Under the pieces are notes generated by a model. It was not told the DNA's origin. It made no database searches and saw only the letters and a list, made by a program, of their open reading frames with translations. This document shows positions 6,388 to 56,405 of a DNA stretch of 64,000 nt, piece by piece. Position 1 is the stretch's first letter, and each line of letters opens with the position of its first letter. Made by a program: the position numbers and the translations under genes. The stretch is from an uncultured Bacteroidales bacterium (GTDB lineage: Bacteria > Bacteroidota > Bacteroidia > Bacteroidales > UBA932): positions 24,334 to 88,333 of the forward strand of contig ONKO01000014.1 in assembly GCA_900318445.1 (NCBI GenBank), read 5' to 3'.

Positions 6388-6494
6388 CGTGGCGCTTAAG
6401 TCATTAATAATTAGTAAGTTAGCACAACTGACGGGTTGTGTTTGAATACCCGTCAGTTGTGCTAATCGATTGGCAGTCAATGAGATAAGTGCCA
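6388..6494. repeat. Family A nested palindromic repeat, copy 1
   Basis: Inner perfect 18-bp arms TTAGCACAACTGACGGGT (6419-6436) and its complement (6448-6465) around an 11-nt loop. Outer imperfect arms GTGGCGCTTAAG (from 6389) and ATAAGTGCCAC (6484-6494). Other copies are at 20410, 48868, 49218 and 56296. Confidence 0.85.
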
Positions 6495-6554
6495 CACTAT
6501 TTTCTGCCGATTACTCCTGCGGCCAAAGCCCCTGACTTTTCGTCGTGAAATCGA

Positions 6555-6625
6555 GCAAAAACGGCAAAAATGCCAAGTTTCGCGGCCGGGCTCGGGTAAA
6601 ACTTGGCAAAAACGGCAAAAATGCC
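6555..6625 (+). repeat. Pair of 20-bp direct repeats next to a promoter
   Basis: GCAAAAACGGCAAAAATGCC occurs at 6555-6574 and 6606-6625. Each contains a small dyad GGCaaaaatGCC. The inner flanks TGCCAAGTTT (6571-6580) and AAACTTGGCA (6599-6608) also form an inverted repeat. The second unit ends 4 bp before the TTTG -33 element of the following promoter, so a binding site is plausible. Confidence 0.7.
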
Positions 6626-6629
6626 GTGT

Positions 6630-6661
6630 TTTGGGCGGTTAAAGAAAAACTCGTATCTTTG
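6630..6661 (+). promoter_or_regulatory. Promoter TTTG-N20-TATCTTTG
   Basis: Complete Bacteroidota promoter: TTTG at 6630-6633, a 20-bp spacer, TATCTTTG at 6654-6661. The ATG of the SEC-C gene follows after seven bases, so the message would have almost no leader. Confidence 0.75.
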
Positions 6662-6668
6662 CAGTTCC

Positions 6669-7916
6669 ATGAAAGAACGTACGCTGCATACTATATTGGA
6701 CGGCTTTGGAAAACCGGAGCTGGAGGACCTTGCGACGCTGCTGGGACGGGATGTGAACCCGAAGACCCGGAAGTCGCAGCTGGTGGAGGAGATGGACGAC
6801 TACCTTAAGGCCGAGCCGCGCCGGTGGATGTCACATCTGCTGGAGAGGGATGTACGGCTCCTCAAGAACCTGGTGCATGCCGGGCCCGAGAAGATCCAGT
6901 ACATGGATTTTGCCGATTACCCGTCCCTGCTGGAAGTGACCGGCATTGTGGAGAGCGACGACTCCGACGAAAACTACCACAAGGTCTGGATCAGCCGTGA
7001 GGTGTACGACATTGTGTCGGCGGATATTGACAAGGTCATCCGGAGCGGAGAGAAAAGCGGCCAGTATGAGCTGGAACGCGTATGCCTCGGGTATCTCAAC
7101 CTTTACGGCATCCTGCCCACGGAGCGTTTCCTGGACGTAGTGATGGAGTGGTACGAGCAGACGCAGGAGAGCCCGGACTATGACCGTCTGTCCCGGATGC
7201 TGGCCCAGAGCCCGCTGGTGAAGATGTACCGCTACAACGACCGCTGGGGAGATTACGTGTGCAGTCCCTGCGTGGAGAATATCGACGAAATCTTTTCCAG
7301 AAGGGAAGAACTCAAGCAGCGTGGCTTTGAGAAATTCACGGCCGCGCAGGCGCGGGAAGCCGGTTCCGGAGCCCCGTACTTTACCGTGGGCATGAAAACC
7401 CAGGCCGGCATGCAGCTGGAGCAGATGTACCGCCGTGTGGGCTACGAAGGCTTCGAGCTGGTAAAGGCCCAGCACGACACCTGGGTAGAAGCCCAGTACA
7501 CCGAAGGCATCAACGACGCCCTCTTCCAGCCGCTCATCGACAGCCCCCTCTATCCGGAACTGGACGACGACAGCTGGCTGGCCTGCTGCGAAATTGTGGC
7601 CCAGTACGCCGACAGCATCCCCAAGTGGGTGCTCTGCGGACGCACGGCGGCCGATACCGGTCTTCTCAAGGCCGATTGGAGCATCTGGAAAACCCGTATG
7701 CGGGAAGAGAAAAAGGCCGCCGAGGCGGCATCGGCCAGCGAAGATTATCCGCACTGGACCATGCCCGAGCCCACCATCACCGACGGCTTTGCCACCGACC
7801 TCAATTCCGACTTCCTGCCTATGGGATTCGCCATCCCGCACGTGGCGCCCAACGATCCCTGCCCCTGCGGCAGCGGTCTCCGCTACTGCCGGTGCCACGG
7901 TAAATACCTGTCCTGA
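6669..7916 (+). CDS. SEC-C motif protein of unknown function
   Basis: 415 residues from ATG at 6669, chosen because a full promoter lies just upstream and no start further upstream makes sense with it. The N-terminal 50 residues (LEDLATLLGRDVNPKTRKSQLVEEMDDYL) look like a short helical Rho-N/SAP-like nucleic-acid-binding unit. The middle is helical without a recognised family. The C-terminus is a clear SEC-C zinc motif, PNDPCPCGSGLRYCRCHG, at about 394-411. It overlaps trmO by one base (TGATG), so the two are likely coupled. Role unknown; SEC-C motifs occur in SecA and many accessory proteins. Confidence 0.75.
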   Translation: MKERTLHTILDGFGKPELEDLATLLGRDVNPKTRKSQLVEEMDDYLKAEPRRWMSHLLERDVRLLKNLVHAGPEKIQYMDFADYPSLLEVTGIVESDDSDENYHKVWISREVYDIVSADIDKVIRSGEKSGQYELERVCLGYLNLYGILPTERFLDVVMEWYEQTQESPDYDRLSRMLAQSPLVKMYRYNDRWGDYVCSPCVENIDEIFSRREELKQRGFEKFTAAQAREAGSGAPYFTVGMKTQAGMQLEQMYRRVGYEGFELVKAQHDTWVEAQYTEGINDALFQPLIDSPLYPELDDDSWLACCEIVAQYADSIPKWVLCGRTAADTGLLKADWSIWKTRMREEKKAAEAASASEDYPHWTMPEPTITDGFATDLNSDFLPMGFAIPHVAPNDPCPCGSGLRYCRCHGKYLS

Positions 7917-8575
7917 TGGAGATTACCCCTGTCGCTTACTACCACGGCCCCTTCGGCGAGAAGTTCGGCATTCCCCGCCAGAGCTCCCTTGCCGGGGTGG
8001 AAGGCCGCATTGTCTTTACAGAAGCCTACTCCGTGCGGGAAGCCCTTCGCGGCCTCGAAGGCTTTGAAAGGCTTTGGCTCATCTGGGGCTTCAGCGCCAA
8101 CAGACCGGCAAAAGGGGAGTGGCAGCCCACCGTGCGCCCGCCCCGTCTTGGCGGTAACGCCGCCATGGGCGTCTGGGCCACCCGTTCTCCCTTCAGGCCC
8201 AATCCGCTGGGCCTCTCCTGCGTGGAACTGGTGAAAGTGGACGGCCTGGAACTGGTGGTCAAGGGAGCCGATCTCATGGATGGCACCCCCATCTACGACA
8301 TCAAGCCCTACATCCCCTATGCCGATGCCTACCCGGAGGCCCGCTCGGGCTTCGTAAGCGGCGCACCCGAGGCCCGGCTGCAGGTGGTGATCCCCGAAGA
8401 ACTGCCGCTGACCCAGGCCCAGAGAGAGGCGCTCACCGAGGTCCTGTCCCTGGATCCCCGCCCCGCCTACCAGGACACGCCCGGCCGGGAATATGGCATG
8501 ATTTTCGATAAAAGGAACATCCGGTTCTCCGTAGAGGACGGAGTTGTAACGGTACTAAAAGCAGACAAGATATGA
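7916..8575 (+). CDS. trmO: tRNA (N6-threonylcarbamoyladenosine(37)-N6)-methyltransferase, TrmO/TsaA family
   Basis: 219 residues. SAM-dependent methylation of t6A37 in threonine tRNA is the role known for TrmO. The single-sheet beta-barrel (UPF0066) hallmarks are present: GIPRQSSLAG near residue 19, a GFERLWLIWGFS strand, and ATRSPFRPNPLGLSCVELV at about 88-106, the most conserved block of the family. The start overlaps the stop of the SEC-C gene by one base, and the stop overlaps the next start (ATGA), so three genes form one translation unit. Confidence 0.93.
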   Translation: MEITPVAYYHGPFGEKFGIPRQSSLAGVEGRIVFTEAYSVREALRGLEGFERLWLIWGFSANRPAKGEWQPTVRPPRLGGNAAMGVWATRSPFRPNPLGLSCVELVKVDGLELVVKGADLMDGTPIYDIKPYIPYADAYPEARSGFVSGAPEARLQVVIPEELPLTQAQREALTEVLSLDPRPAYQDTPGREYGMIFDKRNIRFSVEDGVVTVLKADKI

Positions 8576-8979
8576 AAAAATGGATTTTGATGGCGGCCCT
8601 GGGGCTTTTCCTTCCCCTTGCGGGCCAGGCGCAGGACAACCAGCTGGACAAGAAGAACCTGGTAATCAAAGAGTGGAATACAGACCCCCGTGGCGGCCAT
8701 AAGGTGCTGGACCACGTAACCACCTACAGCCCCTCGGGCCAGAAAATAGAGGAGATCGAGTACGACAGCGCCGGCCAAAAGTGGCGCAAGCGCTTCGAGC
8801 GGGATGCCGCCGGCAAAGTGACCACCGAATACGTCTACGACAACCGCAACCGCCTCCAGACCTACAAGAAATTCGAATACAACGAGTTTGGCCGCAAGAA
8901 GGTGCAGTACACCTACAATCCCAAGGGAAAACTCCTTGGAATCAAGAACTACGAATACATAGCCGAGAAAACCCGCTAA
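8572..8979 (+). CDS. Small secreted protein with YD-like repeats
   Basis: 135 residues. A signal peptide (MKKWILMAALGLFLPLAGQAQ) is followed by short repeating units of the form YDSAGQKWRKRFERDAAG / YDNRNRLQTYKKFEYNEFG / YNPKGKLLGIKNYEY, reminiscent of the YD repeats of Rhs-type proteins and of the MORN/toxin-antitoxin YwqK-like folds. Probably periplasmic or surface exposed. Overlaps trmO by 4 bp. Its 3' end overlaps the convergent AraC gene by 4 bp, leaving no terminator between them. Function unknown. Confidence 0.75.
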   Translation: MKKWILMAALGLFLPLAGQAQDNQLDKKNLVIKEWNTDPRGGHKVLDHVTTYSPSGQKIEEIEYDSAGQKWRKRFERDAAGKVTTEYVYDNRNRLQTYKKFEYNEFGRKKVQYTYNPKGKLLGIKNYEYIAEKTR

Positions 8980-9734
8980 AGGCTGTTCCGGTACTCCGAG
9001 GGAGTGATTCCCATCTTCTTCTTGAAGAAACGTGAAAAGTAAGACTGGTCCACAAGGCCGGTCTTTTCTGCTATCTCGGCGATGGAGAGGGAACGGTTGC
9101 GCAGCAGCTGCTTGGCCATGTTCAGGCGTGCAATTTCAATCCAGTCGATGGCCGTGCGGTGCGTATGATTCTTGACGGTCTTGTTAAGGTAATTTGGTGT
9201 AACCTTAAGAATACCAGCATAATCGGATACATTGAGCGGGGCCTTTCCGCGCTCGAACACCAGCTGCAGGAACTTCTCCGGAATGACAGCCACATGGCCT
9301 CCGCTGCGAAGCTGTCCCAGCACAAGGTCGATGCCGCTCTGCAGGAAAGCCTTGTCTTTGTCTGCGCAGGCAGTGACCATGCGATTGAAAAGTGCCCCCA
9401 TGAAGACGGCGTCGTCGAACCAGAAGCTCTGGAGCAGCGGCTTGTCCATGCGAAGCGCAGAGTGCGTGGCGTCTTTCAGTGCATCCAGGGTGAATCGGCC
9501 GTCAAATCCCGTGCAATCCTTGAAATGCCGGATGAGGATGCTGCGGTTCTCGGGAACGAGCAGCAGCTGGCCGGGGCCGATAAGGATGTTGTGGCCGTCC
9601 ACCTCTACCAGGATTTCTCCTTCCATGAGATAGGTGAATGTGTAGAAGGGAAAGCAATACGGTGCGCTCGTGGAAAGAGGGTCGGCTCCTCCTTCATTGC
9701 TGATGGCATGAACGTAAATTCCTGTATTTCTCAT
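8976..9734 (-). CDS. AraC-family transcriptional regulator
   Basis: 252 residues. The N-terminal cupin-like ligand domain is seen at about 25-75 (FYTFTYLMEGEILVEVDGHNILIGPGQLLLV). Two helix-turn-helix units occupy the C-terminal 100 residues and end with the AraC signature SIAEIAEKTGLVDQSYFSRFFKKKMGITPSEYRNS. Inducer unknown. It starts 5 bp after the DUF5686 gene stop, so it is probably co-transcribed and could regulate that envelope and lipid cluster. Confidence 0.93.
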   Translation of the reverse strand: MRNTGIYVHAISNEGGADPLSTSAPYCFPFYTFTYLMEGEILVEVDGHNILIGPGQLLLVPENRSILIRHFKDCTGFDGRFTLDALKDATHSALRMDKPLLQSFWFDDAVFMGALFNRMVTACADKDKAFLQSGIDLVLGQLRSGGHVAVIPEKFLQLVFERGKAPLNVSDYAGILKVTPNYLNKTVKNHTHRTAIDWIEIARLNMAKQLLRNRSLSIAEIAEKTGLVDQSYFSRFFKKKMGITPSEYRNSL

Positions 9735-9739
9735 AGGCT

Positions 9740-11971
9740 TTAAAATGATAGTTCCAGTCCGACATTGACGCTGAAGTTCTTACTGCGCTGCTCCTGGCGC
9801 TGCGTCAGGCGCCAGAAGAAGTCTACCCGCAGTATCTGCAGGATATTGGAGATGCCGATACCGGCCTCCACATAAGGAATATTGAGGTTTTTGGTTTCCT
9901 GAAGCGTGTTGAGCCTGTTTTGCTCGGTGAGGTCTCCCCACGCAAAACGCACGGAAGCAACCTCCCGCAGGTCCAGCTGCTTGATGAGGGGAATCTTTCC
10001 CAGGAAGAAGCCTCCGAAATTGTGCTCGTAATAGCCCTCCAGCCAGCGGTCCGACGCAAACTCGTACGCGTCCATGCAGGAGAAGGCCGTCTTGTCCCTA
10101 TAGTAGGTGGTATTTCCCTTGTGCAGCTTGAGCAGGGTGTGCGGAACGCTGCCCCAGATGATGCCGCCGTTGATATTGAGGTCTCCGTAGCCGATGGCCG
10201 TAGACGGGAAGCGCCAGCGGAGGGCGGCGTAGGTGCGGACATAGCTGATGTCTCCCTCCGTAATGCCCTTGAAGGCCCCGGAAACACCCAGAAGCAGCAC
10301 CGGATACTGGGAGTACAGGTAGGTTTTCTTGAAATAGCCGCGGCCCACCCGCTCGTCGATGGAAAGGCGCAGGGCGGCGCTGAGCTGGTGCACGGCCATG
10401 CTCTCCATCACCGCGTGCGTGCCGTCTACCGAGTAGATGGGAACGGTGGGATTGCTCCACATGCGCTGGCTGGTCCACTGGAGCTCTGCGTTGAACGACG
10501 GGTTGAACTCGTGCTGATACAGGATGTCGGCGGTACGGACGAAAGTCTGGCGGTTGCCGTCCGAGCGCATGAGAATGGAAGAGAACATGTTGGGCGCCGA
10601 GAAAACGCCGCTTCCGCTGCCCAGCCACTCGTAGTCTGCCTTGTAAGTGACCGTGAGCTTTCGGGTGAGCTCCCGGCCGATCATCCACTCCACCTGGGCC
10701 TGTCCCTTGGGCTTCTTGTCCTTGAAGCCATAGGCCAGATAGCCTCCCAGGCGCACCTTGGGCGAGAACGTATGCCGTGTACGCCCGCCCAGCGACACGC
10801 GGAAGCCCTCCATCTCGTTGCTGGAGAACGTGCGGGCCCAGCGTCCCAGTTCCACCTTGCCGCCCGGCAGCTGCACATAACCGCTGATGAGCGTATACAG
10901 GATGCCGTAGGTCCATTTGTAGAAGCGCCCGTTCTGGATGCGGTCTACCATGTCGTAGATGCCCTGCTCGCGAAGGGACAGGGGATAGGGCCGCACGGAG
11001 CGCCAGTAGCGTTCGTCTCCCTGGATGGTCTTGCTGCGGATGACCTCACCCCCGGCCGCCAGCCGCTCCTTGTCCGGGAGCGTCCCGAACTCCGGCAGGC
11101 TGTAATGCATGCTGCGGCGCACGAGAAACGCGATGAGCCGGGAGTCGTTGGCGTGCGTGACGGAAAGGTCAATGTCCAGGTTCTCAGAGGCATAGAACCA
11201 TTTTCCTCCCACGCGCCGGTATTTGGCGTCAATGTCAAAGCGGCGGATCCAGTTGACTTCGGACTTGGCCGACAGGCTGGCGCGCACGCTGCGGATGCCG
11301 AAGTCCTCCGCGTCTATCCACATTTCTCCGTCCAGAACGGGCGAAGTGACCAGCTTCTTGGGGTGAAAACGCAGCACATAGGTCTTGTGCCCTTCCACCT
11401 GCAGGCTGTCTACCAGGAAGTAGTTATAAAGAACCTGCGAGGACGCAACGGCCGGATTGGGCAGGGACAGGTTGTAAATGCTGATGGAAGGCTTGTAAAA
11501 GCTGGTCTTGAGGATGTAGGAGCCGGTAAACTGTTGCAGTGCGTTCCCGGCGTCTATCCCCGAGATGCGGCTGGCCTGCATCTCTTCCCGGTTGAAGGAA
11601 GGGCTCTGGCTGTGGTAAAGCTCGCTGATGCTTTCCGAGAACAGGGCAGGGACATAGGTGTTGCCGGAAGAGGTATCGGCATATTCCATCACAAATCCCA
11701 GCGGCCCGTGGAGGATGCCGTCTTCCAGCATGCGTTCCATGTTGTCCACGTCCAGCTCGATTTTGGTGTACACGCGGGAGCGCCAGTCCTCGGCATTGTC
11801 GGGGTCGTTGGCGGCAAGGCTCCGGTCCAGTTTTTTCAGGAAAGCGCGGATGTAGCTGTCATCGGCCCGGACGACGGCAGCGTCCAGCGTGTCGGGCTCA
11901 AAAACCTGCGCCCCCGCCGGAAGCAGCGTGGCCAAAAACAGGAAAACGATGAGCCCCCACCTTTTGAACAT
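9740..11971 (-). CDS. DUF5686-family outer-membrane beta-barrel protein
   Basis: 743 residues with a signal peptide (ending LLPAGAQ). The body has the aromatic, alternating strands of a large barrel, with the last strand ending VNVGLELSF, a normal C-terminal outer-membrane signature. Conserved pieces such as DSYIRAFLKKLDRSLAANDP and YEHNFGGFFLGKIPLIKQLDLREVASVRFAWG fit DUF5686 proteins. Most relatives carry an N-terminal carboxypeptidase-regulatory-like domain; here it is absent, so this is the short form. Precise role unknown; an outer-membrane receptor or assembly role is inferred. Confidence 0.8.
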   Translation of the reverse strand: MFKRWGLIVFLFLATLLPAGAQVFEPDTLDAAVVRADDSYIRAFLKKLDRSLAANDPDNAEDWRSRVYTKIELDVDNMERMLEDGILHGPLGFVMEYADTSSGNTYVPALFSESISELYHSQSPSFNREEMQASRISGIDAGNALQQFTGSYILKTSFYKPSISIYNLSLPNPAVASSQVLYNYFLVDSLQVEGHKTYVLRFHPKKLVTSPVLDGEMWIDAEDFGIRSVRASLSAKSEVNWIRRFDIDAKYRRVGGKWFYASENLDIDLSVTHANDSRLIAFLVRRSMHYSLPEFGTLPDKERLAAGGEVIRSKTIQGDERYWRSVRPYPLSLREQGIYDMVDRIQNGRFYKWTYGILYTLISGYVQLPGGKVELGRWARTFSSNEMEGFRVSLGGRTRHTFSPKVRLGGYLAYGFKDKKPKGQAQVEWMIGRELTRKLTVTYKADYEWLGSGSGVFSAPNMFSSILMRSDGNRQTFVRTADILYQHEFNPSFNAELQWTSQRMWSNPTVPIYSVDGTHAVMESMAVHQLSAALRLSIDERVGRGYFKKTYLYSQYPVLLLGVSGAFKGITEGDISYVRTYAALRWRFPSTAIGYGDLNINGGIIWGSVPHTLLKLHKGNTTYYRDKTAFSCMDAYEFASDRWLEGYYEHNFGGFFLGKIPLIKQLDLREVASVRFAWGDLTEQNRLNTLQETKNLNIPYVEAGIGISNILQILRVDFFWRLTQRQEQRSKNFSVNVGLELSF

Positions 11972-11976
11972 AGGAC

Positions 11977-11984
11977 CAAAGGTA
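11977..11984 (-). promoter_or_regulatory. Promoter -7 box TACCTTTG for the DUF5686 gene
   Basis: Minus-strand TACCTTTG, five bases before the ATG at 11971. It suggests that DUF5686-AraC can be transcribed separately from the lipid genes upstream, perhaps as a leaderless message. Confidence 0.45.
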
Positions 11985-11995
11985 GGGTAAATTTG

Positions 11996-12808
11996 TTAAT
12001 TATACAAGAGGTTTACCAGCTTGAGGCGCCATTTCACAGGACAAATGCGGACAACGAATCCGATGAGCCCGTAATCGATGCGCGGAATGACCCTTGCGCG
12101 CATGTGCCGCCGCTGAAGCTGGCCCAGGATGCTGCGGCCGATGACGGCAGGCGACATTCCTCCCAGCTCGTCCTTCTCGATCTTGGCGAGGTTTTTCTTC
12201 ATGCGGGAAGCATAGGGGGAACCGGGGACCTTAGCCGCCTCGTTGAGTTTACGGGCCGATGTGAAGCCCGTGGCAACGTCTCCCGGAAGGACGCAGCAGC
12301 ACTCGATCCCGCTGCCGTCCAGTTCCATGGCGAGACCCTCGGTGAGGAACAGGAGCGCCGCCTTGGCGCTGGAGTAGAACACCTGGTAGGGCAGGGGCAG
12401 GATGCCCATGACGGACGACACCGTGACGATGCGCCCGAAGCCCTGCCGGCGGAAGGCGGGCAGGCAGGCCTCTATGGTTCTAAGCGAGCCGTAGAACGTG
12501 GTTTCGAACTGGTTACGGGCTTCCTCCTCAAGCGTTCCTTCAACCGGACCGTAGATGCCGTTGCCGGCATTGCAGATGACGGCGTCCAGGCGGCCTTCGC
12601 GGGAAAGGATATCGGCTACGACGGCCTCGATGACGGCGGCGTCGTTCACGTCCAGCTTCACGGGGACGATGCCCTCCTGCGGCTCGTCAATGGTTCCGCG
12701 GCGGCTGCCGGCATACACTTTCATGCCGGCCGATGCCAGCAGATGGGCGGTGGCGGCTCCAATGCCGCTGCTGCCTCCGGTGAGGAGGACCACTTTTACT
12801 TTTTCCAT
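11996..12808 (-). CDS. Short-chain dehydrogenase/reductase
   Basis: 270 residues, classical SDR. Cofactor motif TGGSSGIG at 10-17, NAG near residue 80, catalytic Ser in TVSSVMG and the YxxxK pair in FYSSAKAAL near 155. Ends with a hydrophobic C-terminal helix region (GLIGFVVRICPVKW). Overlaps the acyltransferase gene upstream by 13 bp. Given its neighbours it may reduce a lipid intermediate, for example a keto-acyl or ketosphinganine-type substrate, but that is inference; the motifs define only the fold and cofactor class. Confidence 0.85.
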   Translation of the reverse strand: MEKVKVVLLTGGSSGIGAATAHLLASAGMKVYAGSRRGTIDEPQEGIVPVKLDVNDAAVIEAVVADILSREGRLDAVICNAGNGIYGPVEGTLEEEARNQFETTFYGSLRTIEACLPAFRRQGFGRIVTVSSVMGILPLPYQVFYSSAKAALLFLTEGLAMELDGSGIECCCVLPGDVATGFTSARKLNEAAKVPGSPYASRMKKNLAKIEKDELGGMSPAVIGRSILGQLQRRHMRARVIPRIDYGLIGFVVRICPVKWRLKLVNLLYN

Positions 12809-13659: not shown

Positions 13660-13660
13660 A

Positions 13661-14368: not shown

Positions 14369-14393
14369 AGTAAGATAGGGTTATAGAAAGCTT

Positions 14394-15374: not shown

Positions 15375-15409
15375 AAAATACACGTTTGGAAAGGCTAAAT
15401 TAGTCTTAT

Positions 15410-17185: not shown

Positions 17186-17186
17186 G

Positions 17187-20325: not shown

Positions 20326-20409
20326 CGCTGCCTTATGTTATGAATACAGAGTGTTTCCAGCCAGTTTACCGTTGCAGGTGGAAAGGCTCATGGCAATGAC
20401 AAAACGGCC

Positions 20410-20516
20410 GTGGCGCTTATGTTGCTGATTACTAATGTGTTAGCACAACTGACGGGTGCGTTTTGAATACCCGTCAGTTGTGCTAACACATTGATTTCGA
20501 ATTATTTAACTGCCAC
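20410..20516. repeat. Family A nested palindromic repeat, copy 2
   Basis: Inner perfect 24-bp arms at 20434-20457 and 20469-20492 containing the same TTAGCACAACTGACGGGT core as copy 1; outer GTGGCGCTTA (20410-20419) and AACTGCCAC (20508-20516). Confidence 0.85.
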
Positions 20517-20613
20517 GGTACATGCGGTGTCCAGACTGCGTTGACTAAAAACGGACATTCTGTGTGTCAAAGGGAAGCCGTCCCGCCAGCCGGAAGCCCT
20601 GCCAGAGCCACCC

Positions 20614-48555: not shown

Positions 48556-48585
48556 ATGTATTGTAGTCTATTCCTTTTAAACCTA

Positions 48586-48593
48586 CAAATTTA
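48586..48593 (-). promoter_or_regulatory. Promoter -7 box TAAATTTG for the valS operon
   Basis: Minus-strand TAAATTTG, 30 bp upstream of the valS ATG. Confidence 0.45.
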
Positions 48594-48670
48594 CTCATTT
48601 TTTGCGGGAGTTGCAAGTACGAGCGTCCTCTGGCACATAATCCCGCCGGGCCAACGGCCGAGCGCAGCTG

Positions 48671-48722
48671 TCATTCTGAGCGCAGCGTTTTGTCATTCCG
48701 AGCTTGCCGAGGAATCTCTTCG
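48671..48722. repeat. TCATTCCGAGCTTGCCGAGG-type interspersed repeat
   Basis: TCATTCTGAGCGCAGCG (48671-48687) and a second unit TCATTCCGAGCTTGCCGAGG continuing to 48722. The inverse form is at 56442-56500. Such units are widespread in bacterial intergenic DNA and produce spurious peptides of the CHSExxEESL type. Confidence 0.7.
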
Positions 48723-48738
48723 TTTCCGCTGGGCCAAC

Positions 48739-48793
48739 GGCCGAAGGAATTTATTTTTCGGGACGGGGCCCGAAAAACCAAATTCCTTCGGCC
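48739..48793. repeat. Family C hairpin, copy 1
   Basis: Arms GGCCGAAGGAATTT-ATTTTTCGGG and CCCGAAAAA-CC-AAATTCCTTCGGCC around a short loop. The CC in the right arm is unpaired and marks orientation. Confidence 0.85.
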
Positions 48794-48867
48794 ATCGCAA
48801 CGCCCCCGCGCGTTTTCATTCCATCGGCTTACTGTTTTTATTCCATCGGCCTTCTGTCTCTTAAAAT

Positions 48868-48978
48868 GCGTGGCGCTTAAGTGGCTCTGTATGAGCTGTT
48901 TAGCACACCGGACGGGTGCGATTTTGGTACCCGTCAGGTGTGCTAAGTTGTTGAACGTGAGCTTGTTAAGCGCCACGC
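48868..48978. repeat. Family A nested palindromic repeat, copy 3
   Basis: Perfect outer arms GCGTGGCGCTTAA (48868-48880) and TTAAGCGCCACGC (48966-48978); inner arms TTAGCACACCGGACGGGT (48900-48917) and ACCCGTCAGGTGTGCTAA (48929-48946), one mismatch. Confidence 0.85.
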
Positions 48979-49013
48979 CCCTGCGCGTGTTCATCCTGGT
49001 TCGTAAGCCGGTG

Positions 49014-49050
49014 TGACAATCTTAAGCAGGATTTGGGCGATATTCTGCTT
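49014..49050. repeat. Family B fragment
   Basis: GACAATCTTAAGCAGGATTTGGGCGATATT, one half of the double hairpin seen at 54748 and 56163, with its closing arm decayed. Confidence 0.65.
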
Positions 49051-49086
49051 TTGTTCGTAATACTGCCCTAATCTCGCTGGGCCATC

Positions 49087-49142
49087 GGCCTTCGAAAATT
49101 ATTTTTCGGGCTGCCCGCCCGAAAAACCAATTTTCGACGGCC
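49087..49142. repeat. Family C hairpin, copy 2
   Basis: GGCCTTCGAAAATT-ATTTTTCGGG paired with CCCGAAAAA-CC-AATTTTCGACGGCC. The stem base differs from copy 1 (TTCGAAAATT instead of GAAGGAATTT), yet both arms changed together. Confidence 0.85.
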
Positions 49143-49217
49143 ATCGCAACGCCCTCGCGCATTTTCATTCCGTCGGCTCACTTTTTTATTCCATCGGCCT
49201 TCTGCCTCTTAAAATGC

Positions 49218-49326
49218 CGTGGCGCTTAAGTGGCTCTATATGAACTGTTTAGCACACCGGACGGGTGCGATTTTGGTACCCGTCCGGTGTGCTAAGTTGT
49301 TGAACGTGAGCTTGTTAAGCGCCACG
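49218..49326. repeat. Family A nested palindromic repeat, copy 4
   Basis: Outer CGTGGCGCTTAA (49218-49229) / TTAAGCGCCACG (49315-49326); inner perfect TTAGCACACCGGACGGGT (49249-49266) / complement (49278-49295). Confidence 0.85.
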
Positions 49327-49354
49327 CCCGTGGGACGTCGTGCACGATTGGCCC

Positions 49355-49717
49355 CTACTTCGTTTTCTCTTTGACGAAGCCGTAGCACAGAAGGCCGATG
49401 CGGAATGCGGCGATGAAGAGAAAGAGATAGCCAAAGCGGCTAAGGGCGTCGCTGTTAAACAGATAGACGGCAAGAAGGATGTCAAAGCCGATGTTGCCGA
49501 TGGTGTCTTCTGCGTTGCTGGCAAACTGCATGTAGTACTCCTTACTGCGGATGGAGGCAATGAAGGTGTAAATGACAGTGGGGAGAAGGAGCAGGGCTGC
49601 CAAAATGAGGAAAATGGTTTTGAGGGGCTCCAGGTCCTGATTCAGGAACAAATAGCCCAGGAACAGAAAGGAGCCGACCAGCTCCAGTCGGTTCAGGAAT
49701 TGGATTTGCTTTTTCAT
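49355..49717 (-). CDS. Small membrane protein, unknown function
   Basis: 120 residues with four hydrophobic segments at about 10-26, 31-54, 72-87 and 91-112. Basic C-terminus (GFVKEKTK). No family recognised. It lies alone between a repeat-rich gap and the glycosyltransferase gene, 56 bp downstream of the latter's stop on the same strand. The even membrane topology and length resemble small YrdB-like or DUF-type inner-membrane proteins, without firm support. Confidence 0.65.
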   Translation of the reverse strand: MKKQIQFLNRLELVGSFLFLGYLFLNQDLEPLKTIFLILAALLLLPTVIYTFIASIRSKEYYMQFASNAEDTIGNIGFDILLAVYLFNSDALSRFGYLFLFIAAFRIGLLCYGFVKEKTK

Positions 49718-49773
49718 ACGGGTGTTAAGTTGTTTTACTGAACGAAGTTACATTAATCTCCTGATGTGCAAAT

Positions 49774-50940
49774 CTATTTGCTGGCGGTGAAGCGGCAGTA
49801 ATCGGCGTAGACGTCGCGGACGACGTCGTCCCAATTGAGGTAGAGGTCCCGGTGGGCGGCGGCGCTGATGCGGGCGTAGGCGCTGTCATCGGCCATGATG
49901 TCCAGGATGAGGCGGGCGTAATTCTCCTCGCCGGGGGCCGATACGTACCCGTTGACGCCGGGGGTGACGGTGGCGCTGGTGCGCGCGCCCTCGAGGAAGA
50001 CGGTGGGCGTGCCCTGGCAGGCGGCTTCGATCTGGACGAGGGAGTTGGCGTCGTACAGGGACGGGAACAGGAAGAGTTTGGCGCGGGAGTAGATTTTTTC
50101 CAGCTGGTCGCGTCCGGAGACGAGGCCGCACATGACGACTTCGTCCTCAAGGCCCTGTTCCCGGACGAGCTCCGCGAGGCGTTCCTCGTCCTGACCTTTT
50201 CCTACAAATAACATCCGGAAGTTCTTGAGGCCCATCTTCTTGGCAATAGCGAGGGAGCGTACGGTGAAGTCGATGTTCTTGATGAAGTTAATGCGGCCCA
50301 CGAAGAGGAAGACGGTGGCATCGGCAGGGATGCCGTAGGTGCTGTTGACCCACGCTGCGGCGGAAGGGACATCGGCCACGGGCATGTGATCCGTCGCATT
50401 GAGACGGACCTTGCACGGTGCGGTGAGCCCGTACTCCTTCTGGTAGAGTTCCTGGATGCCGGCATTGACGGCCCAGCATTCGTCGCAGGCGTTGAAAACG
50501 CCCATGATGCTTTTCATGGCTACGTCTACGGCGGGCTTGAAGTGGAGCGTCTTTTCGTAGTCCTGCCGGTACTGCGAGTGGAGCGTGGCGACGGCGGGAA
50601 TGCCGTGCAGCTTGGCATGCAGCACGCCGTTCAGGCTTACGGCAAAGGGCGAATGGATGTGCACGATATCGATGCCGCTCGCAACCAGCTGGGCCTCGAA
50701 GATGGGGTCCAGTACGGGTGTGGGGATGTCGTAGTCGGAGTTGATGAGCGGTAAAGAGCTGCAGCGCACGACTTTATAGGGAAGGGATTCATCCATTTCT
50801 TTCGTTGCGCCACGGGTCTCGGGGCAGAAAACCACTACATCACAATACTTCATGAGACGGCGGGCATAATTGTCCACCACTTTGATGACACCGTCCACCA
50901 TGGGATACCAGGTGTCTATAAACAGTCCAACTTTTTTCAT
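49774..50940 (-). CDS. Glycosyltransferase family 4
   Basis: 388 residues from ATG 50940 (MKKVGLFIDTWYPMVDGVIKVVDNYARRL); the frame is open further upstream but this start follows a TATCTTTG box by ten bases. GT-B fold: N-terminal acceptor domain with HIHSPFAVSLNG near 118, C-terminal domain with FVGRINFIKNIDFTVRSL near 238 and FPSLYDANSLVQIEAACQGTP near 318, where the first Glu of the E(x)7E motif is Asp. Similar to diacylglycerol glucosyltransferases and other lipid glycosyltransferases; substrate unproven. Confidence 0.9.
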   Translation of the reverse strand: MKKVGLFIDTWYPMVDGVIKVVDNYARRLMKYCDVVVFCPETRGATKEMDESLPYKVVRCSSLPLINSDYDIPTPVLDPIFEAQLVASGIDIVHIHSPFAVSLNGVLHAKLHGIPAVATLHSQYRQDYEKTLHFKPAVDVAMKSIMGVFNACDECWAVNAGIQELYQKEYGLTAPCKVRLNATDHMPVADVPSAAAWVNSTYGIPADATVFLFVGRINFIKNIDFTVRSLAIAKKMGLKNFRMLFVGKGQDEERLAELVREQGLEDEVVMCGLVSGRDQLEKIYSRAKLFLFPSLYDANSLVQIEAACQGTPTVFLEGARTSATVTPGVNGYVSAPGEENYARLILDIMADDSAYARISAAAHRDLYLNWDDVVRDVYADYCRFTASK

Positions 50941-50950
50941 AGCTACAATG

Positions 50951-50958
50951 CAAAGATA
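50951..50958 (-). promoter_or_regulatory. Promoter -7 box TATCTTTG for the GT4 gene
   Basis: Minus-strand TATCTTTG, ten bases upstream of the ATG at 50940, in the 43-bp divergent gap to the OB-fold gene. Confidence 0.55.
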
Positions 50959-50983
50959 GTCATAATAGTTGTAAATTAGCCGC

Positions 50984-51655
50984 ATGAAACGGGTTTTACT
51001 TTTGCTTCTGGCGCTGTGTGTGGCTGTTAACGGCCTGGCACAGCAGCATTTAACGGTTAAGGAATTTTTGCGGCTCTCCCCTTCCGACACCACCAGCTAT
51101 GTCGTCACCGGCGTGGTGGAAAAGGTGCGAAGTTCCACCAGCGGCAGCTTCTATCTGAAGGACGCAACCGGCACCCTGCTGGTTTACGGCCTGCAGGATC
51201 CCGCCGCTGCGGGGCGCTCGTTCAAGCAGATGGATATTGTGAAGGGAGACACCCTCACCGTTCTGGGCCGATTCACCATCTACGCCGGCACCACCCTGGA
51301 GATGAAGGACGGCCGGCTGCTGAGAAAGGCCGATGGTCCCGAGCACAATGTCTCGTTCTATGACCGCATGGAGCGCCGCCCGGTGTTCCAGGGCAAGGAA
51401 GGCCGCGAAGGCCTGGCCGCTTTTGGCCGATGGGTGCAGACCCACGTGCGCCGCGATGTGGGAAAGGGCCTTGTCACCGTGAGCTTTGTGGTGGGCCGCA
51501 ACGGCCGTGTGCAGGAGGTGCAGGTTTTCAGGAGCACCAACCCCGCGCTGAACGAAGAAGCCATGCGCGTCGTCAAGAGTTCCCCGAAGTGGAAACCGGC
51601 CCTGGCCGATGGCGAACCGGTGCGGATGCCGTATAAGGTGGATGTGGTGTTTTGA
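50984..51655 (+). CDS. Secreted protein with OB-like fold and TonB C-terminal domain
   Basis: 223 residues. Signal peptide MKRVLLLLLALCVAVNGLAQ. Residues about 22-115 look like an OB fold (SYVVTGVVEKVRSSTSGSFYLKDATGTLLVYGL ... DTLTVLGRFTIYAGTTLEMKDGRLL). Residues about 135-223 form a TonB C-terminal domain (VRRDVGKGLVTVSFVVGRNGRVQEVQVFRSTNPALNEEAMRVV). There is no TonB N-terminal anchor or proline linker, so it is unlikely to energise receptors in the usual way; it may bind a partner in the periplasm. Stands alone with a divergent GT4 gene. Confidence 0.8.
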   Translation: MKRVLLLLLALCVAVNGLAQQHLTVKEFLRLSPSDTTSYVVTGVVEKVRSSTSGSFYLKDATGTLLVYGLQDPAAAGRSFKQMDIVKGDTLTVLGRFTIYAGTTLEMKDGRLLRKADGPEHNVSFYDRMERRPVFQGKEGREGLAAFGRWVQTHVRRDVGKGLVTVSFVVGRNGRVQEVQVFRSTNPALNEEAMRVVKSSPKWKPALADGEPVRMPYKVDVVF

Positions 51656-51669
51656 GCGGGGGGGGCTTT

Positions 51670-51733
51670 GAGGCTCTGAGGCTCTGAGGTTCTGGGGCTC
51701 TGAGGTTCTGGGGCTCTGAGGTTCTGGGGCTCT
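51670..51733 (+). repeat. 16-bp tandem repeat
   Basis: Three exact copies of GAGGTTCTGGGGCTCT (51686-51701, 51702-51717, 51718-51733) preceded by a diverged copy from 51670. Confidence 0.85.
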
Positions 51734-51741
51734 GGCGGCTT

Positions 51742-51766
51742 GGCGCAGGTTCGGTGGACCTGCGCC
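51742..51766. repeat. GGCGCAGGT hairpin
   Basis: Perfect arms GGCGCAGGT and ACCTGCGCC with a 7-nt loop. The same GGCGCAGGTTCC motif recurs at 61158-61276. Confidence 0.75.
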
Positions 51767-51778
51767 AGCATACGGAGA

Positions 51779-51866
51779 CGTATAACGCGAAAAAGGCCGT
51801 TTTGTGCGTTATACGTTCCTCTTGAGCGGGACCAATAACGCACTTTTGCCGGAAAAACGCGTTATA
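51779..51866. repeat. Two ATAACGC inverted repeats
   Basis: CGTATAACGC (51779-51788) pairs with GCGTTATACG (51806-51815); ATAACGC (51834-51840) pairs with GCGTTATA (51859-51866). The loops share an A-rich plus TTTTG/TTTTGC-like content. Confidence 0.65.
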
Positions 51867-51937
51867 GGTTAGCGCAAAATAAAGGGGGGGCATCGTGCCG
51901 ATATGGGAAAGGCTGAAGGAAAAGATGAAAAACACTA

Positions 51938-51968
51938 TTTGTTTTTCTATATTTCTTTTGTAACTTTA
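51938..51968 (+). promoter_or_regulatory. Promoter TTTG-N19-TAACTTTA
   Basis: TTTG at 51938-51941 and TAACTTTA at 51961-51968; the last base of the -7 box deviates from consensus (A for G). A leader of about 100 nt precedes the small ORF at 52073. Confidence 0.5.
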
Positions 51969-52072
51969 CAAAGTTTAACCACGCTAGTAACCAGCGACTT
52001 AACTATGAAAATGCTATTTGGATGCAATGCATGCATATTTATAGCTAATAACCAATTAATTCTATATTGCTT

Positions 52073-52213
52073 ATGACTCAAAAAGAGCTTTACACTTCCC
52101 CCGAAGTGGCCGTCCTCACGTTGCAGAGCGAGGGCGTGGTTTGTCAGAGTATTACCACTACTGACGCAATGACTCTCCCGGATTGGCAGAGTGGCATTGA
52201 GATTACCTTCTAA
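52073..52213 (+). CDS. Small 46-residue ORF upstream of the surface lipoprotein
   Basis: MTQKELYTSPEVAVLTLQSE at 1-20, then GVVCQSITTTDAMTLPDWQS and GIEITF to a TAA at 52211-52213. It resembles the short peptides of the form M(T/K)KKxYxxPxVxVLxLxxExVVCxS that precede surface-protein genes in Bacteroidales, with a conserved central Cys. It lies 15 bp upstream of the lipoprotein start and probably shares its mRNA. No signal peptide or membrane helix. Function unknown; a leader peptide, secreted signal or translational coupler are all possible. Confidence 0.7.
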   Translation: MTQKELYTSPEVAVLTLQSEGVVCQSITTTDAMTLPDWQSGIEITF

Positions 52214-52513
52214 CCTGTTGCGTCAACTATGAAAAGAATGAATTATTTTGGCGCACTGGCAGTAGCTGCTATCGCTTTTGTGGGTTGCAACAAGGTTGAA
52301 CAATCCATTGAAAATGAAATCGAAAAGAGTGGTATTCCTTTTGAGTTCGTAGCTTCCGGTATGGAAACCAAGACCACTTCGGATGGTTATAACGCTACTT
52401 TATGGGCTACCGGTGATGAAGTGAATCTGTTTCATGCCGTTGCGGGTTCCACAACGTATGTATCGGACGGCGCATTCGAGGCTACTGCCGATGGCGCAAG
52501 TGTGACCTTCTCC

Positions 52514-52563
52514 GGCACGCTGGCATCGGCCCTTACCGGGCACGCTGGCATCGGCCCTTACCG
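52514..52563 (+). repeat. 25-bp perfect tandem duplication inside the lipoprotein gene
   Basis: The unit GGCACGCTGGCATCGGCCCT plus TACCG occurs twice without a mismatch. Removing one unit joins FSGTLASALTADNYDWYAIYP in one frame. Confidence 0.9.
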
Positions 52564-52788
52564 CCGACAATTATGACTGGTATGCCATCTATCCTCAGAA
52601 TAACAACATTGAAACCCCTGCTAACACCGGCGACGAAGGTTATGTAACGATTGGTAGTTATGCTACTGCAAAGCAGGCCCAAAATGGCAACGACAGCAAA
52701 CTTCATCTGGCCGGAACCCGCATCCCCGTGGCTGGTAAAGTACTTGGTGTAGCCAAGGATACCAAGCCCTCCATTGCCATGCAGCATC

Positions 52789-52810
52789 TTGTTTCGGTGT
52801 TGTTTCGGTG
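52789..52810 (+). repeat. 11-bp perfect tandem duplication inside the lipoprotein gene
   Basis: TTGTTTCGGTG occurs twice back to back. Removing one copy gives the continuous reading MQHLVSVICVHLVNGTSS. Confidence 0.9.
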
Positions 52811-54679
52811 ATTTGCGTGCATCTTGTCAACGGAACGTCCAGCCCCATCACGGTGTCGGAAATCTCCTTCACCGGCACCGAGGACATTGTGGGTACCTAT
52901 TTCATTGACTTTGTGAGCTCTCCCGTTGTGTATACGCCCAGCGGTGCAAAGTATGTGAGTTCGACGGCTCAACTTCATATTAATAACGGGACAAAGATTA
53001 ATGCCGGGTCTGATGCTACATTCTACATGGCTATAAAGCCTTTCACTGCTCCTGCTGGTGAAACTATTTCCCTGTCTGTAACAGCAGACAACGGCGCTCA
53101 GGTCCGTCAGAAAGTATTGACTGCCGACGCAGTGTTTGAAGCGGGTTCGCTCAACTCGCTTAACTTCACCTATGATTTGGCACCTCAGGTTGTAACGCTC
53201 CCGTTTAGTATTGATGGAAAAGCTGGTAAAGCCGCATATACTACCATTCCAGGACTGTCAGCCTCCGGTCTTGGATCTGATTATGCCAGTGCTAATTCAC
53301 CTTATCTTACGAAATTAGATGGAACAGGAGATTATATTCAAGTCCGTTTTGATGCAGCAGCCGGGAAAGCCAGTATTGGTGTAAAGAAGTTAGGAGGTGC
53401 CGCCAATTCTTCATTTGACGTAATGGGCTCCGCTGATGGAGACGATTTTACGAAAATTGAAACGTTGGATGTAACTGGCGCAGTAAATGCTACTATGACT
53501 TTGGAAACCAGCGTGCCTATTGATGCATCTTATCGTTTTATCCGTTTTGTATTCAATAAGGGCGCTAATGTGGGTGTTGGCCCTCTCGCAATCACCCTGC
53601 CTTCATTAGATCCCGAGATTAAAGCTTCAAATGTCTCTGACATTCCCGCAATTGGAGGTACAGATCTTTCATTTACGTATGAAATTTTAAATTTCTCGGG
53701 CGCGGACGATGTTGCTGTTACTGCCTTTGATGGGGAGGTAGTTGCTTCTGCAAGTGTTAATACTGCAGGAACGGTCACTTACTCTATTTTTCCTAACTAC
53801 AGTGAAACGGCTAAGAATGGTTCTATTACGCTGAACTCTGCTTCAGAGGGAGTTTCTAAAATTGTTTCTGTATCTCAACTCGGTGAGACTTTTGTTGCAT
53901 CTGCGGAGGAAGTCGTTATTCCTAATAATGCAACGACCGCAACATTTACAATTACCAGCCCTACGTTTGGTTGGAATGCTGTTGCGAATGCCGAATCCGA
54001 AAAGAATCTTACCATTTCCGGTTCAGCCTCCGGTTCTGGTAGTGCTTCTGCACAGACCATTACTGTTAGTTCCACTACAGTAGCAGGTGCCACTGAGCAG
54101 ACTCTTGGTACTATTACCGTTTATCGTAATGGAAATACGTCTGATATACAGAAAAAGTCCATTACAGTTAAGAAGGCATCATCTGCTGTCGCTTCTACAT
54201 ATACTAAGGTAACGAGTTTGACTGCAGGTGCCCAGTATTTGCTTGTCAATACAAGTACTAACAAGGTCGCTACCGGAGTAGTTTCCAGCAGCACTTTGCA
54301 GTCGGCGTCTGTAATAATTACTGGTGGGACTACGATTGCTGGAAATGATACAATCGATGGGTATACCGTCACTATCACCGCTTTGACAGGAGGTGATGCT
54401 GGTTATTATACCCTTAAATTCGGATCTAAGTATCTTAAATATACTAGTAGCTCCAGTGTTGCATTAAATGATACTGCTACCACAAATAGTGAGAAGTGGT
54501 CAATTGAAATTGATAGTGAAACTGGATTGGCTACTATTAAGAACAAAGCGACCAATACTCGTTTTATCGGGTGGAACAATAATAATGGTTGGAAAGCCTA
54601 CTCGACAGGCAATTTGAACACTTATCCAAGACCTTATTTGTTCATTAAGCAATAAGTACTCGGCATAATCAATATTGAA

Positions 54680-54720
54680 GGCATCAGTTCAAAGGCATTG
54701 GACTGATGCCTTTTTCTTTT
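54680..54720 (+). terminator. Rho-independent terminator of the lipoprotein gene
   Basis: GGCATCAGTT (54680-54689) pairs with GACTGATGCC (54701-54710), followed by TTTTTCTTTT. Confidence 0.85.
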
Positions 54721-54747
54721 TGCAGATTGTAAAATTGTTCTTTGATT

Positions 54748-54844
54748 GACGATCTTAAGCAGGATTTCGCGGGAAAAGATGCTTTAGATCGTCAGCGCAT
54801 GCGATCTTAAGCAGGATTTGGGCCATATTACGCTTAAGATTGTC
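54748..54844. repeat. Family B double hairpin, copy 1
   Basis: First hairpin GACGATCTTAAGCA ... TGCTTTAGATCGTC (54748-54792); second hairpin GCGATCTTAAGC ... GCTTAAGATTG (54801-54842). Both open with GATCTTAAGCAGGATTT. A near-identical copy lies at 56163-56260. Confidence 0.85.
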
Positions 54845-54894
54845 TGAATGACGAGATTGGAGTTGAATTGGATTCTGTGCGTGGGCGTCGCGAT

Positions 54895-54949
54895 GGCCGA
54901 AGGAATTTGGTTTTTCGGGCCCCGTCCCGAAAAATAAATTCCTTCGGCC
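54895..54949. repeat. Family C hairpin, copy 3
   Basis: GGCCGAAGGAATTT-GG-TTTTTCGGG paired with CCCGAAAAATAAATTCCTTCGGCC. The unpaired GG is now in the left arm, so this copy is inverted relative to copies 1 and 2. Confidence 0.85.
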
Positions 54950-55021
54950 GATGGCCCAGCGAGGCATCCTTTCGAAAAGTCCAGCAATTTGCGTAAATTT
55001 ACACACTTAAAACAAAGACCA

Positions 55022-56149
55022 ATGAAACGATTCGCACTTCTGAGCATCCTCGTGGCACTCCCCTTCATGGCGCAGGCGCAAGGCATCAAGGCCGGGCCGT
55101 GGGTGACAGATGCATCAGAAACACAACTCACCATCCTCTGGACCAGCGAGGTGCCGGGGCAGGCATACGTGGAGCTTGAAGACGGCACAAAGCTGTACGA
55201 CACCTTCGCCGGACGGCGCATCTTCCGCCGCCTGCACAGCATAACCATAAACGGCCTCCAGGCGGGCCAGAACCTCAAATACCGCCTGGGCGGCCTCAAT
55301 ATCAAGGACGACTCCAACGCCCGCGACCCCGAGTTCGGCACCTCTTATATCGGCCCGTGGGAGTGCACCCGAACCTTCGACTACAGCGCTCCCAGCTGCC
55401 GTTTCTCGGTGTTCAACGACACGCACATGAAGGTGAAAAAGTACCGCAGGCTCGCCGCGCAGGTAGACTCGGCCCGCACCGATTTCCTGTTCCTGAACGG
55501 AGACATCGTATCGGCCGGCAACTACGTGCTGGACACGCTGGTGCGCTACGCTGTGGAGCCCCTTGGCACCCTCACCCACGGTCTTCCGCTGCTATTCGCG
55601 CGCGGCAACCACGAGGGCCGCGGAAACAACACATGGCTTGTGGCCGATGTCTTCCCGCACAAGTCCCCCGCCCCCTTTTATTACACCTTCCGACAGGGCC
55701 CGGTAGCCTTCATCGTCTTTGATGGCGGTGAAACCCACGAGAAACGAAGCCGCGCCTATGCCGGGGCCGATGTCTTTGAAGACTACATCAACGAGCAAAT
55801 CGAATGGGCCAAAGGCGCCATGCAGGAGAAGGACTTCCAGGAAGCCCCCATCAAGATTTGCCTTGTCCACGTACCCATGATCGACCATGAGGACAAGACC
55901 GATTTCTACCTCCAGCGCTGGCTCAACGTACACGTGGTCCCTCTGCTCAACAAAGCCGGAATAGACCTCATGATTGGCGCCGACCTCCACGAATTCATGC
56001 TCTGCGAAGCCGGCACCATGGGCAACAACTTCCCTATCCTGGTGAACGACGACGTCCGCAGGCTGGATGTTCAGTGTAGCCCCTCAGAAGGCATTGCCGT
56101 GAAGATGTTTAACGACAAGGGCGTGCTCGAATTCGAGAGGACGTTCTAG
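55022..56149 (+). CDS. Secreted metallophosphoesterase
   Basis: 375 residues from ATG 55022 (MKRFALLSILVALPFMAQAQ, a signal peptide); the frame is open further upstream but only through a leader that is also conserved ahead of the esterase gene. A purple-acid-phosphatase-like N-terminal Fn3 region (ETQLTILWTSEVPGQAYVEL) precedes the metallophosphatase core: FNDTH near 133, LNGDIVS near 158, ARGNHEGRG near 195, VHVPM near 280 and GADLHEFML near 318. Cleaves phosphoesters in the periplasm; substrate unknown. Bounded by family B double hairpins on both sides. Confidence 0.9.
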   Translation: MKRFALLSILVALPFMAQAQGIKAGPWVTDASETQLTILWTSEVPGQAYVELEDGTKLYDTFAGRRIFRRLHSITINGLQAGQNLKYRLGGLNIKDDSNARDPEFGTSYIGPWECTRTFDYSAPSCRFSVFNDTHMKVKKYRRLAAQVDSARTDFLFLNGDIVSAGNYVLDTLVRYAVEPLGTLTHGLPLLFARGNHEGRGNNTWLVADVFPHKSPAPFYYTFRQGPVAFIVFDGGETHEKRSRAYAGADVFEDYINEQIEWAKGAMQEKDFQEAPIKICLVHVPMIDHEDKTDFYLQRWLNVHVVPLLNKAGIDLMIGADLHEFMLCEAGTMGNNFPILVNDDVRRLDVQCSPSEGIAVKMFNDKGVLEFERTF

Positions 56150-56162
56150 GGTTGTTACCGCC

Positions 56163-56260
56163 GACGATCTTAAGCAGGATTTCCCGGGAAAAGATGCTTT
56201 AGATCGTCAGCGCATACGATCTTAAGCAGGATTTGGGCAATATTACGCTTAAGATCGTCG
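56163..56260. repeat. Family B double hairpin, copy 2
   Basis: GACGATCTTAAGCAGGATTT ... AGATCGTC then ACGATCTTAAGCAGGATTTG ... CTTAAGATCGTCG. Nearly identical to 54748-54844; in this copy the closing arm AAGATCGTCG pairs better. Confidence 0.85.
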
Positions 56261-56295
56261 CACCGGCTTACGAACCAGGATGAACACGCGCAGGA

Positions 56296-56405
56296 GCGTG
56301 GCGCTTAACAAGCTCACGTTCAACAACTTAGCACACCAGACGGGTGCCAAAATCGCACCCGTCTGGTGTGCTAAACAGTTCATATAGAGCTACTTAAGCG
56401 CCACG
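56296..56405. repeat. Family A nested palindromic repeat, copy 5 (inverted)
   Basis: Outer GCGTGGCGCTTAA (56296-56308) / TTAAGCGCCACG (56394-56405); inner perfect TTAGCACACCAGACGGGT (56328-56345) / complement (56357-56374). The stem carries CCAGACGGG where copies 3 and 4 have CCGGACGGG, and both arms differ together. Flanks show that it is in the opposite orientation to copies 3 and 4. Confidence 0.85.

Follow-up and report, generated by a model that had tools for sequence, protein, structure and literature searches.

What keeps long palindromes intact at several intergenic places of a bacterial genome while the letters of their stems differ from copy to copy? The question is raised by a stretch of 64,000 nucleotides (the window; contig ONKO01000014.1 of assembly GCA_900318445.1, from an uncultured Bacteroidales bacterium), in which five copies of a 109-nt element lie between genes. 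Each copy is very probably a non-autonomous element of the repetitive extragenic palindrome (REP) type, belonging to the system of a REP-associated tyrosine transposase (RAYT), and the whole is a REP/RAYT system, unusual in its layout and common in one genus. One RAYT gene of the same assembly, the C8 gene, whose contig lies outside the window, is flanked by the family to which the window copies belong. Mobility of the elements is our inference.

Every copy begins with an outer arm of 12 nt, CGTGGCGCTTAA; a spacer of 19 nt, an inner arm of 18 nt and a loop of 11 nt come next, and the mirror image follows. The inner-arm pattern TTAGCACAMNNGACGGGT, at up to three mismatches, gives 10 matches in the window, which are the two arms of the five copies, against 0.51 expected; 10 matches were reached in 0 of 100 dinucleotide shuffles. 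A model built solely from elements of other genomes (R2) recovers all five copies, with best-strand E-values of 2.1e-11 to 1.6e-12. The five copies described in the first-pass annotation are thus all real, their starts being off by at most one base; the inner cores it gave are correct, and four of the five have a matching opposite arm (copy 3, at 48869, has one mismatch). Its remark that loop and spacer are less conserved is incomplete for the spacer, which carries an 11-nt box at a fixed position.

Palindromes flanking transposase genes

The assembly (2.31 Mb in 32 contigs, 88% complete) encodes three RAYT homologues plus a distant fourth. The C8 gene sits between two copies of family A, the family of the window, the C21 gene has a family-B core element on each side and the C15 gene a family-C core element on each side. 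All three (3/3) are found to be flanked on both sides by R2, made without own-genome sequence. A REP-type palindrome with a linked RAYT-type gene had been one option of the first-pass annotation, and cognate RAYT-like genes do lie between element pairs.

The association extends to other genomes. Relatives of the transposase are encoded by 304 stretches of the named collection, of which 80 loci were kept, titled uncultured Bacteroidales or Bacteroidia and many of them from rumen, omasum or reticulum. An element lies within 500 bp of the gene at 68 of these 80 loci (on both sides at 29, on one side at 39), and the 3' elements begin a median of 15 nt beyond the end of the RAYT match; at L091, an element stands directly after a gene with a DHIH motif. 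Another 34 RAYT loci have elements on both sides in 10 cases and on one side in 14; the detector used for them, which at these loose settings made 3 matches in 613,485 shuffled bases, missed both flanks of the C21 gene (L109) that R2 recovers. The elements are also specific to their gene: stem similarity is 0.81 between the two flanks of one locus and 0.48 between loci (10 loci; 0 of 100,000 permutations), and RAYT identity correlates with stem identity across 67 of the 80 named loci (Mantel r 0.28 for the outer and 0.36 for the inner stem; 0 of 2000) as well as across 55 non-redundant loci (0.28 and 0.26; 0 of 2000).

The protein, roughly 310 residues long, is a transposase of the HUH/Y1 type. 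H58, H60 and Y118 never vary in two protein sets of 22 and 30 members, the larger having been drawn from 78 loci (2 of the 80, lacking an open reading frame of 295-340 codons, were left out). The motifs are mostly PDHxH and Y[LVI]xNN, and by its motif we take Y118 to be the catalytic tyrosine. All 30 proteins match NF047646 REP_Tyr_transpos at E <= 0.01. The fold predicted for one such transposase (mb3d029188bf3, from L319:1501-2427; 309 residues, predicted local distance difference test (pLDDT) 93.8) has as its best match in the PDB 4er8, in which the E. coli RAYT holds a REP hairpin (E 4.7e-5 over 144 columns; template-modelling score (TM) 0.72 on the target and 0.40 on the query). A confidently predicted C-terminal helical part lies beyond the 144 matched columns.

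Element and transposase also occur together across the genus. A model built from family A, and hence biased to it (R1), matches 71 of 151 genomes, those read having the same layout with other stems, and the transposase is found in 89; both are present in 63 genomes, the element only in 8, the RAYT only in 26 and neither in 54 (Fisher p 7e-13, a statistic that ignores relatedness). Among 198 genomes of the order, R1 matched the own genome only, which given its bias is weak evidence, and among 394 other genomes of the class the transposase profile gave one match (9.6e-21), covering part of its length.

Paired stems and a conserved spacer

The pairing of the stems could be followed in 97 elements that adjoin transposase genes at the 80 named loci. 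By the detector's boundaries they measure 105-119 nt (70 of the 97 measure 108 nt) and have two stems. Pairing is far above expectation at outer positions 1-8 and in the inner core, positions 42-51 (position 6 is paired in 86 of 97 elements against 28 expected, position 44 in 95 against 28), and about at the expected level at spacer positions 13-31. For covariation we aligned 47 of the 97, exactly 108 nt each, one per locus and all from other genomes. Their stems hold 397 double changes against 134.6 in shuffled alignments; the covariation score is 0.753, against 0.218 when shuffled and at most 0.193 when the partners are slid, and the spacer alone, at 0.208 against 0.220 shuffled, does not pair. 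The paired stem changes that had been noticed in the five window copies hold, therefore, well beyond their own genome. Within family A alone, 43 cells are changed on both sides against 17.6 shuffled.

Covarying stems could also point to a transcribed structure, a regulatory RNA or an mRNA-stabilising hairpin under selection at the RNA level; a transcribed RNA structure was among the options of the first-pass annotation. Of the 82 gene ends called next to copies, 50 are 3' ends, which would agree with it. That lean is not significant, however (50 vs 32, p 0.06), and on the strand transcribed with the RAYT gene the stems have no excess of G-T over A-C, with 35 vs 34 in outer and 20 vs 25 in inner stems of 3' elements, and 26 vs 27 and 23 vs 17 in those of 5' elements. 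The sole lean to G-T is in the unpaired spacer of the 5' elements (115 vs 85, p 0.04), and the 14 G-T against 37 A-C of family A are uninterpretable since the strand was picked alphabetically. The spacers, moreover, are unpaired, the stems track the RAYT, and no Rfam family attains its gathering score in the window. An RNA structure is thus unsupported, and we consider it quite improbable.

The spacer region keeps its sequence, TAA-N4-YTGATWATCAR-N4-TTA. A mini-hairpin inside the box was considered and rejected (positions 17-27 are Watson-Crick in 32 of 76 against 33.5 expected, with no internal covariation). The logo of the motif fits, in both directions, what we take to be the IHF consensus of E. 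coli, WATCAANNNNTTR, and the own genome has two matches to the HU/IHF family above cut-off, a strong one of 83.7 bits and a partial one of 23.0 bits. To judge by its sequence, the motif suggests protein binding too. It may even be a general host-protein site, because four IMG/VR contigs (L330, L337, L345, L361) carry TAAnnnnTTGATWATCAAnnnnTTA or a close variant beside TTATCCACA/TGTGGATAA, presumably the DnaA box, in an arrangement as in a replication origin. A further IMG/VR contig, L351, has a one-mismatch version. As carriers of the element the viral contigs were rejected: 33 stretches have the half-element motif, and on these the detector at loose settings gives hits of 33-42, many of them lying in A+T-rich sequence and none being a clear nested element. 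Covariation separates the stems, presumably the part concerned with recognition, from a conserved spacer motif that is likely a host-factor scaffold.

A possible host protein at the spacer invites another explanation, namely that the elements are the host's own, acting as terminators in both directions or as sites for nucleoid proteins (IHF/HU), and merely attract or carry the RAYT. The motif beside DnaA-box-like sequence and the two HU/IHF-family matches are consistent with this, and so are the short distance of the 3' elements from the RAYT match and the A-tract and T-tract that surround the core in many RAYT-flanking elements (in 52 of 97, at least 3 of the 4 bases are T). Family A, on the other hand, has no T-tract (0 of 49 copies have at least 3 T of 4), and a terminator was rejected for it on that ground; the silence of the terminator scan at copies 3-5 is uninformative, as the scan admits loops of 3-8 only. 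Such host sites also leave the RAYT-specific stems unexplained. REPs can be co-opted by their host, so a host role is compatible with a REP origin; that the elements are host sites and nothing else seems to us unlikely.

Copies, stem families and shared sites

Far more than the five copies first described are present in the assembly. With no constraint on the loop, a scan recovered 37 copies, the loop being 11 nt in 37 of 37, and a wider scan that required this geometry found 49 unique family-A copies; 38 aligned copies are gap-free, the selection having fixed the inner geometry beforehand. Over an 8-nt inner-arm stretch that includes the varying bases, both arms are identical in 39 of the 49 copies and differ in 10; those alike on both arms include 18 copies of the AGTA type (TTAGAGTAACTG) and 17 of the CACA type. 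Family A carries GTGG...CCAC, each base of GTGG (positions 2-5) being found in 75 or 76 of 76 half-sites. A search with R2 adds about 45 copies of further stem families; 40 of these extra places were read, of which 20 belong to family B (core like CTCTTTAGGC), 3 to family C (core CGGGTGCACC) and the remaining 17 to about three more families.

These copies bear on two other explanations. The outer arms resemble the 12-bp terminal inverted repeats of a DDE-type miniature inverted-repeat transposable element (MITE), another of the options raised from the window alone. Yet 0 of the 49 copies have an exact adjacent duplication of 4-10 bp, which is as expected for HUH/Y1 enzymes, where no target duplication is made, and not for most DDE elements; and the transposase that is flanked is itself of the HUH/Y1 type. 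A MITE fits worse on both counts and is highly improbable. There is next to no chance that we are dealing with a coding palindrome inserted in frame, of which the Rickettsia palindromic elements are an example. One frame through the GCACA type is open in places, but in rough codon-score gene calls the overlap with a gene exceeds 50 nt in 0 of 49 copies, and the AGTA type has TAA in that frame; on these grounds a coding repeat was rejected. Where both neighbours are called (33 copies), 11 pairs are convergent, 19 tandem and 3 divergent (convergent 11 vs divergent 3, p 0.06).

A relative, G330, allows single sites to be compared over about 1.18 of its 2.2 Mb. A detector blind to stem sequence finds 36 elements in these 1.18 Mb and 0 in their shuffled sequence; there is one strong family-A match, and the three RAYTs of G330 are just 42-46% identical to the C8 type. 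Both flanks place eight of the own copies in G330 (4 of the 49 of family A and 4 of the 40 others), a number kept low in part by this coverage, and at three of the eight, window copy 20409, L381 and L396, the G330 interval holds an element with other stems. The L381 element starts two bases after an apparent stop codon and its G330 counterpart one base after; the L396 element ends one base before an apparent start codon and its counterpart two bases before. Read in the same direction, the spacers of each site pair agree at 22, 20 and 20 of 38 positions, modestly above a background of 16.6 (standard deviation 2.9). Possibly, though we regard it as doubtful, the element serves as an unchanging scaffold, with host-protein sites at a set spacing and a set genomic place, and with an exchangeable stem 'address', the arms of the resident element being rewritten in place upon replacement of the RAYT family. 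It could be, instead, that elements inserted repeatedly and independently at favoured sites; eight sites are a small sample. These same-site, different-stem cases mean that insertion and rewriting can be told apart by comparison of strains. At a fourth of the eight sites (L372 against L195:19645-19784), where the detector marks no element, the G330 sequence AAGCGTGAAAGTAAGTGTTTCATAACTTATGACTTA resembles a decayed one; the remaining sites have none.

Table 1. Element copies in the 64,000-nt window (strand entered as "." for every copy) and features at the RAYT loci of the same genome.
Feature	Position	Strand	Remarks
Copy 1	6388..6496	.	family A; TTAGCACAACTGACGGGT as inner arm, at 6419-6436 with its partner at 6448-6465
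Copy 2	20409..20517	.	family A; in the syntenic interval G330 has an element whose stems differ
Copy 2, outer left arm CGTGGCGCTTAT	20409..20420	.	pairs with 20506-20517
Copy 2, left spacer box of YTGATWATCAR type	20425..20435	.	right box 20491-20501
Copy 2, inner left arm TTAGCACAACTGACGGGT	20440..20457	.	pairs with 20469-20486; loop 20458-20468
Copy 3	48869..48977	.	CACCGG core; inner stem with one mismatch
Copy 4	49218..49326	.	CACCGG core; inner stem perfect
Copy 5	56297..56405	.	CACCAG core; inner stem perfect; orientation opposite to copies 3 and 4
R2 elements on both sides of RAYT, L108 (C8)	591 and 1959
R2 elements on both sides of RAYT, L109	933 and 2090
R2 elements on both sides of RAYT, L110 (C15)	775 and 1926
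GGCTAAAAC/GTTTTAGCC repeats	L108:1853-1938; L109:2017-2047; L110:905-951		upstream of RAYT

Copies 3-5 have other repeats for neighbours. A second family of long palindromes (GGCCGAAGGAATTTGGTTTTTCGGG and variants) occupies 48727-48819, 49073-49161, 54876-54964 and 56510-56718, some of its copies being mutually inverted, and CGATCTTAAGCAGGATTT repeats lie at 49016-49058, 54748-54844 and 56163-56259; the span 48689-56720 resembles a repeat-rich island containing inverted duplications. Short tandem repeats with units of 8 and 20 bases are found at 51646-51741 and 61074-61140. Outside the window, the C8, C21 and C15 RAYT genes, though divergent, have the GGCTAAAAC/GTTTTAGCC repeats directly upstream, perhaps a sign of a regulator common to the three; as a general signal upstream of RAYT genes GGCTAAAAC was rejected, its 9-mer occurring within 260 nt in 0 of the 80 named loci and a 7-mer in 4. 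The distant fourth transposase-like gene (G000:C21:251770-252183, L107) has a QNHIH motif and 313 aa, and no long palindrome pair is listed in its surroundings.

Proposed mechanism and known systems

How could a REP/RAYT system of this layout work? In a single-stranded state, for example at a replication fork, the stems would fold into hairpins, which the cognate RAYT would recognise, cutting one strand and joining it elsewhere without target duplication. A host protein of the IHF/HU type on the spacer motif might bend the duplex and so bring the two arms together. Each RAYT would spread the folded stems of its own family; the arms would remain complementary because recognition by the RAYT needs the fold, and the changes would come in pairs because selection on recognition conserves complementarity while the arm sequence drifts.

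Several observations weigh against a REP/RAYT origin of the elements. Among the scores listed, those with NF047646 are 48.9 and 28.8, where the cut-off is 80 bits, and those with Y1_Tnp 21.4 and 16.7, where it is 23; a sequence search of the PDB gives IS200/IS605 transposases weakly (best E 0.0023). At 12 of the 80 and 10 of the 34 RAYT loci no element was detected; conversely, 8 of the 71 genomes with the element have no RAYT match, many assemblies being incomplete, and three stem families of the own genome are without a RAYT in the 88%-complete assembly. Family B has outer arms that pair poorly, its inner stem being kept, and in family A taken alone the 6 pairs with double changes equal the shuffled mean and the further pair types number 16 against 16.2. 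The IHF reading of the spacer box stands on a consensus that we assume from E. coli. Finally, no movement of an element was observed, and the alignments of four of the five syntenic G330 sites with no detected element yielded no exact empty target.

The comparison with known systems draws on the accessible parts of the papers cited. REP/RAYT systems have been described mainly from Proteobacteria (PMC2817692, PMC8266576), among them REP-rayt-REP units and the co-evolution of REP and RAYT (PMC2817692). As in the REP/RAYT (TnpAREP) systems, REPtrons and REPINs of Proteobacteria, a transposase gene here lies between palindromes of its own type (PMC2817692, PMC8266576); the likeness extends to the many genomic copies, the co-evolution of stem and protein, the 3' element near the stop codon and the HUH/Y1 fold. 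The differences lie in the element, a nested two-stem palindrome mostly of 107-109 nt with fixed spacing where a proteobacterial REP measures 20-40 nt, in the motif GT[AG]G, found within 7 nt of just 38 of the 194 ends of RAYT-flanking elements, and in the protein, about twice as long as a proteobacterial RAYT and with an extra C-terminal helical part. In BIME-1 (bacterial interspersed mosaic element) of E. coli, IHF binds between inverted REPs (PMC2817692); inverted palindromes with an IHF-type site, lying between genes, are common to both, but here two candidate boxes stand between nested arms in mirror symmetry.

Closest by taxonomy is TnpAREP subclass 2.6 (Bertels group 5), which comprises Bacteroidetes genes with atypical flanking structures without GT[AG]G (PMC6006769). 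It shares with the present system the Bacteroidetes host, flanking structures without GT[AG]G and further genomic copies, and is set apart by its described motifs and length: a median of 179 aa with NH[LIV]H and YIH[QN]NP there, about 310 aa with PDHxH and Y[LVI]xNN here; the flanking structures could be alike. Subclass 2.4 (Bertels group 4, the 'double foot' REPs) is close in its Y motif, YIxNNP, and in element ends that are reverse complements of each other, as in the GTGG...CCAC of family A, but it has NH[IFV]H, GT[AG]G is not general in our elements, and the nested spacer motif present here is absent from the accessible description (PMC6006769). The accessible parts of PMC3733652 and PMC12306157 hold nothing closer to the element, and no description of it was found in the open PMC literature. 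REP/RAYT systems as such are known already; new here is their Bacteroidales version, and its dozens of natural pairs of transposase and element form a data set on how RAYTs recognise palindromes and how REP families arise.

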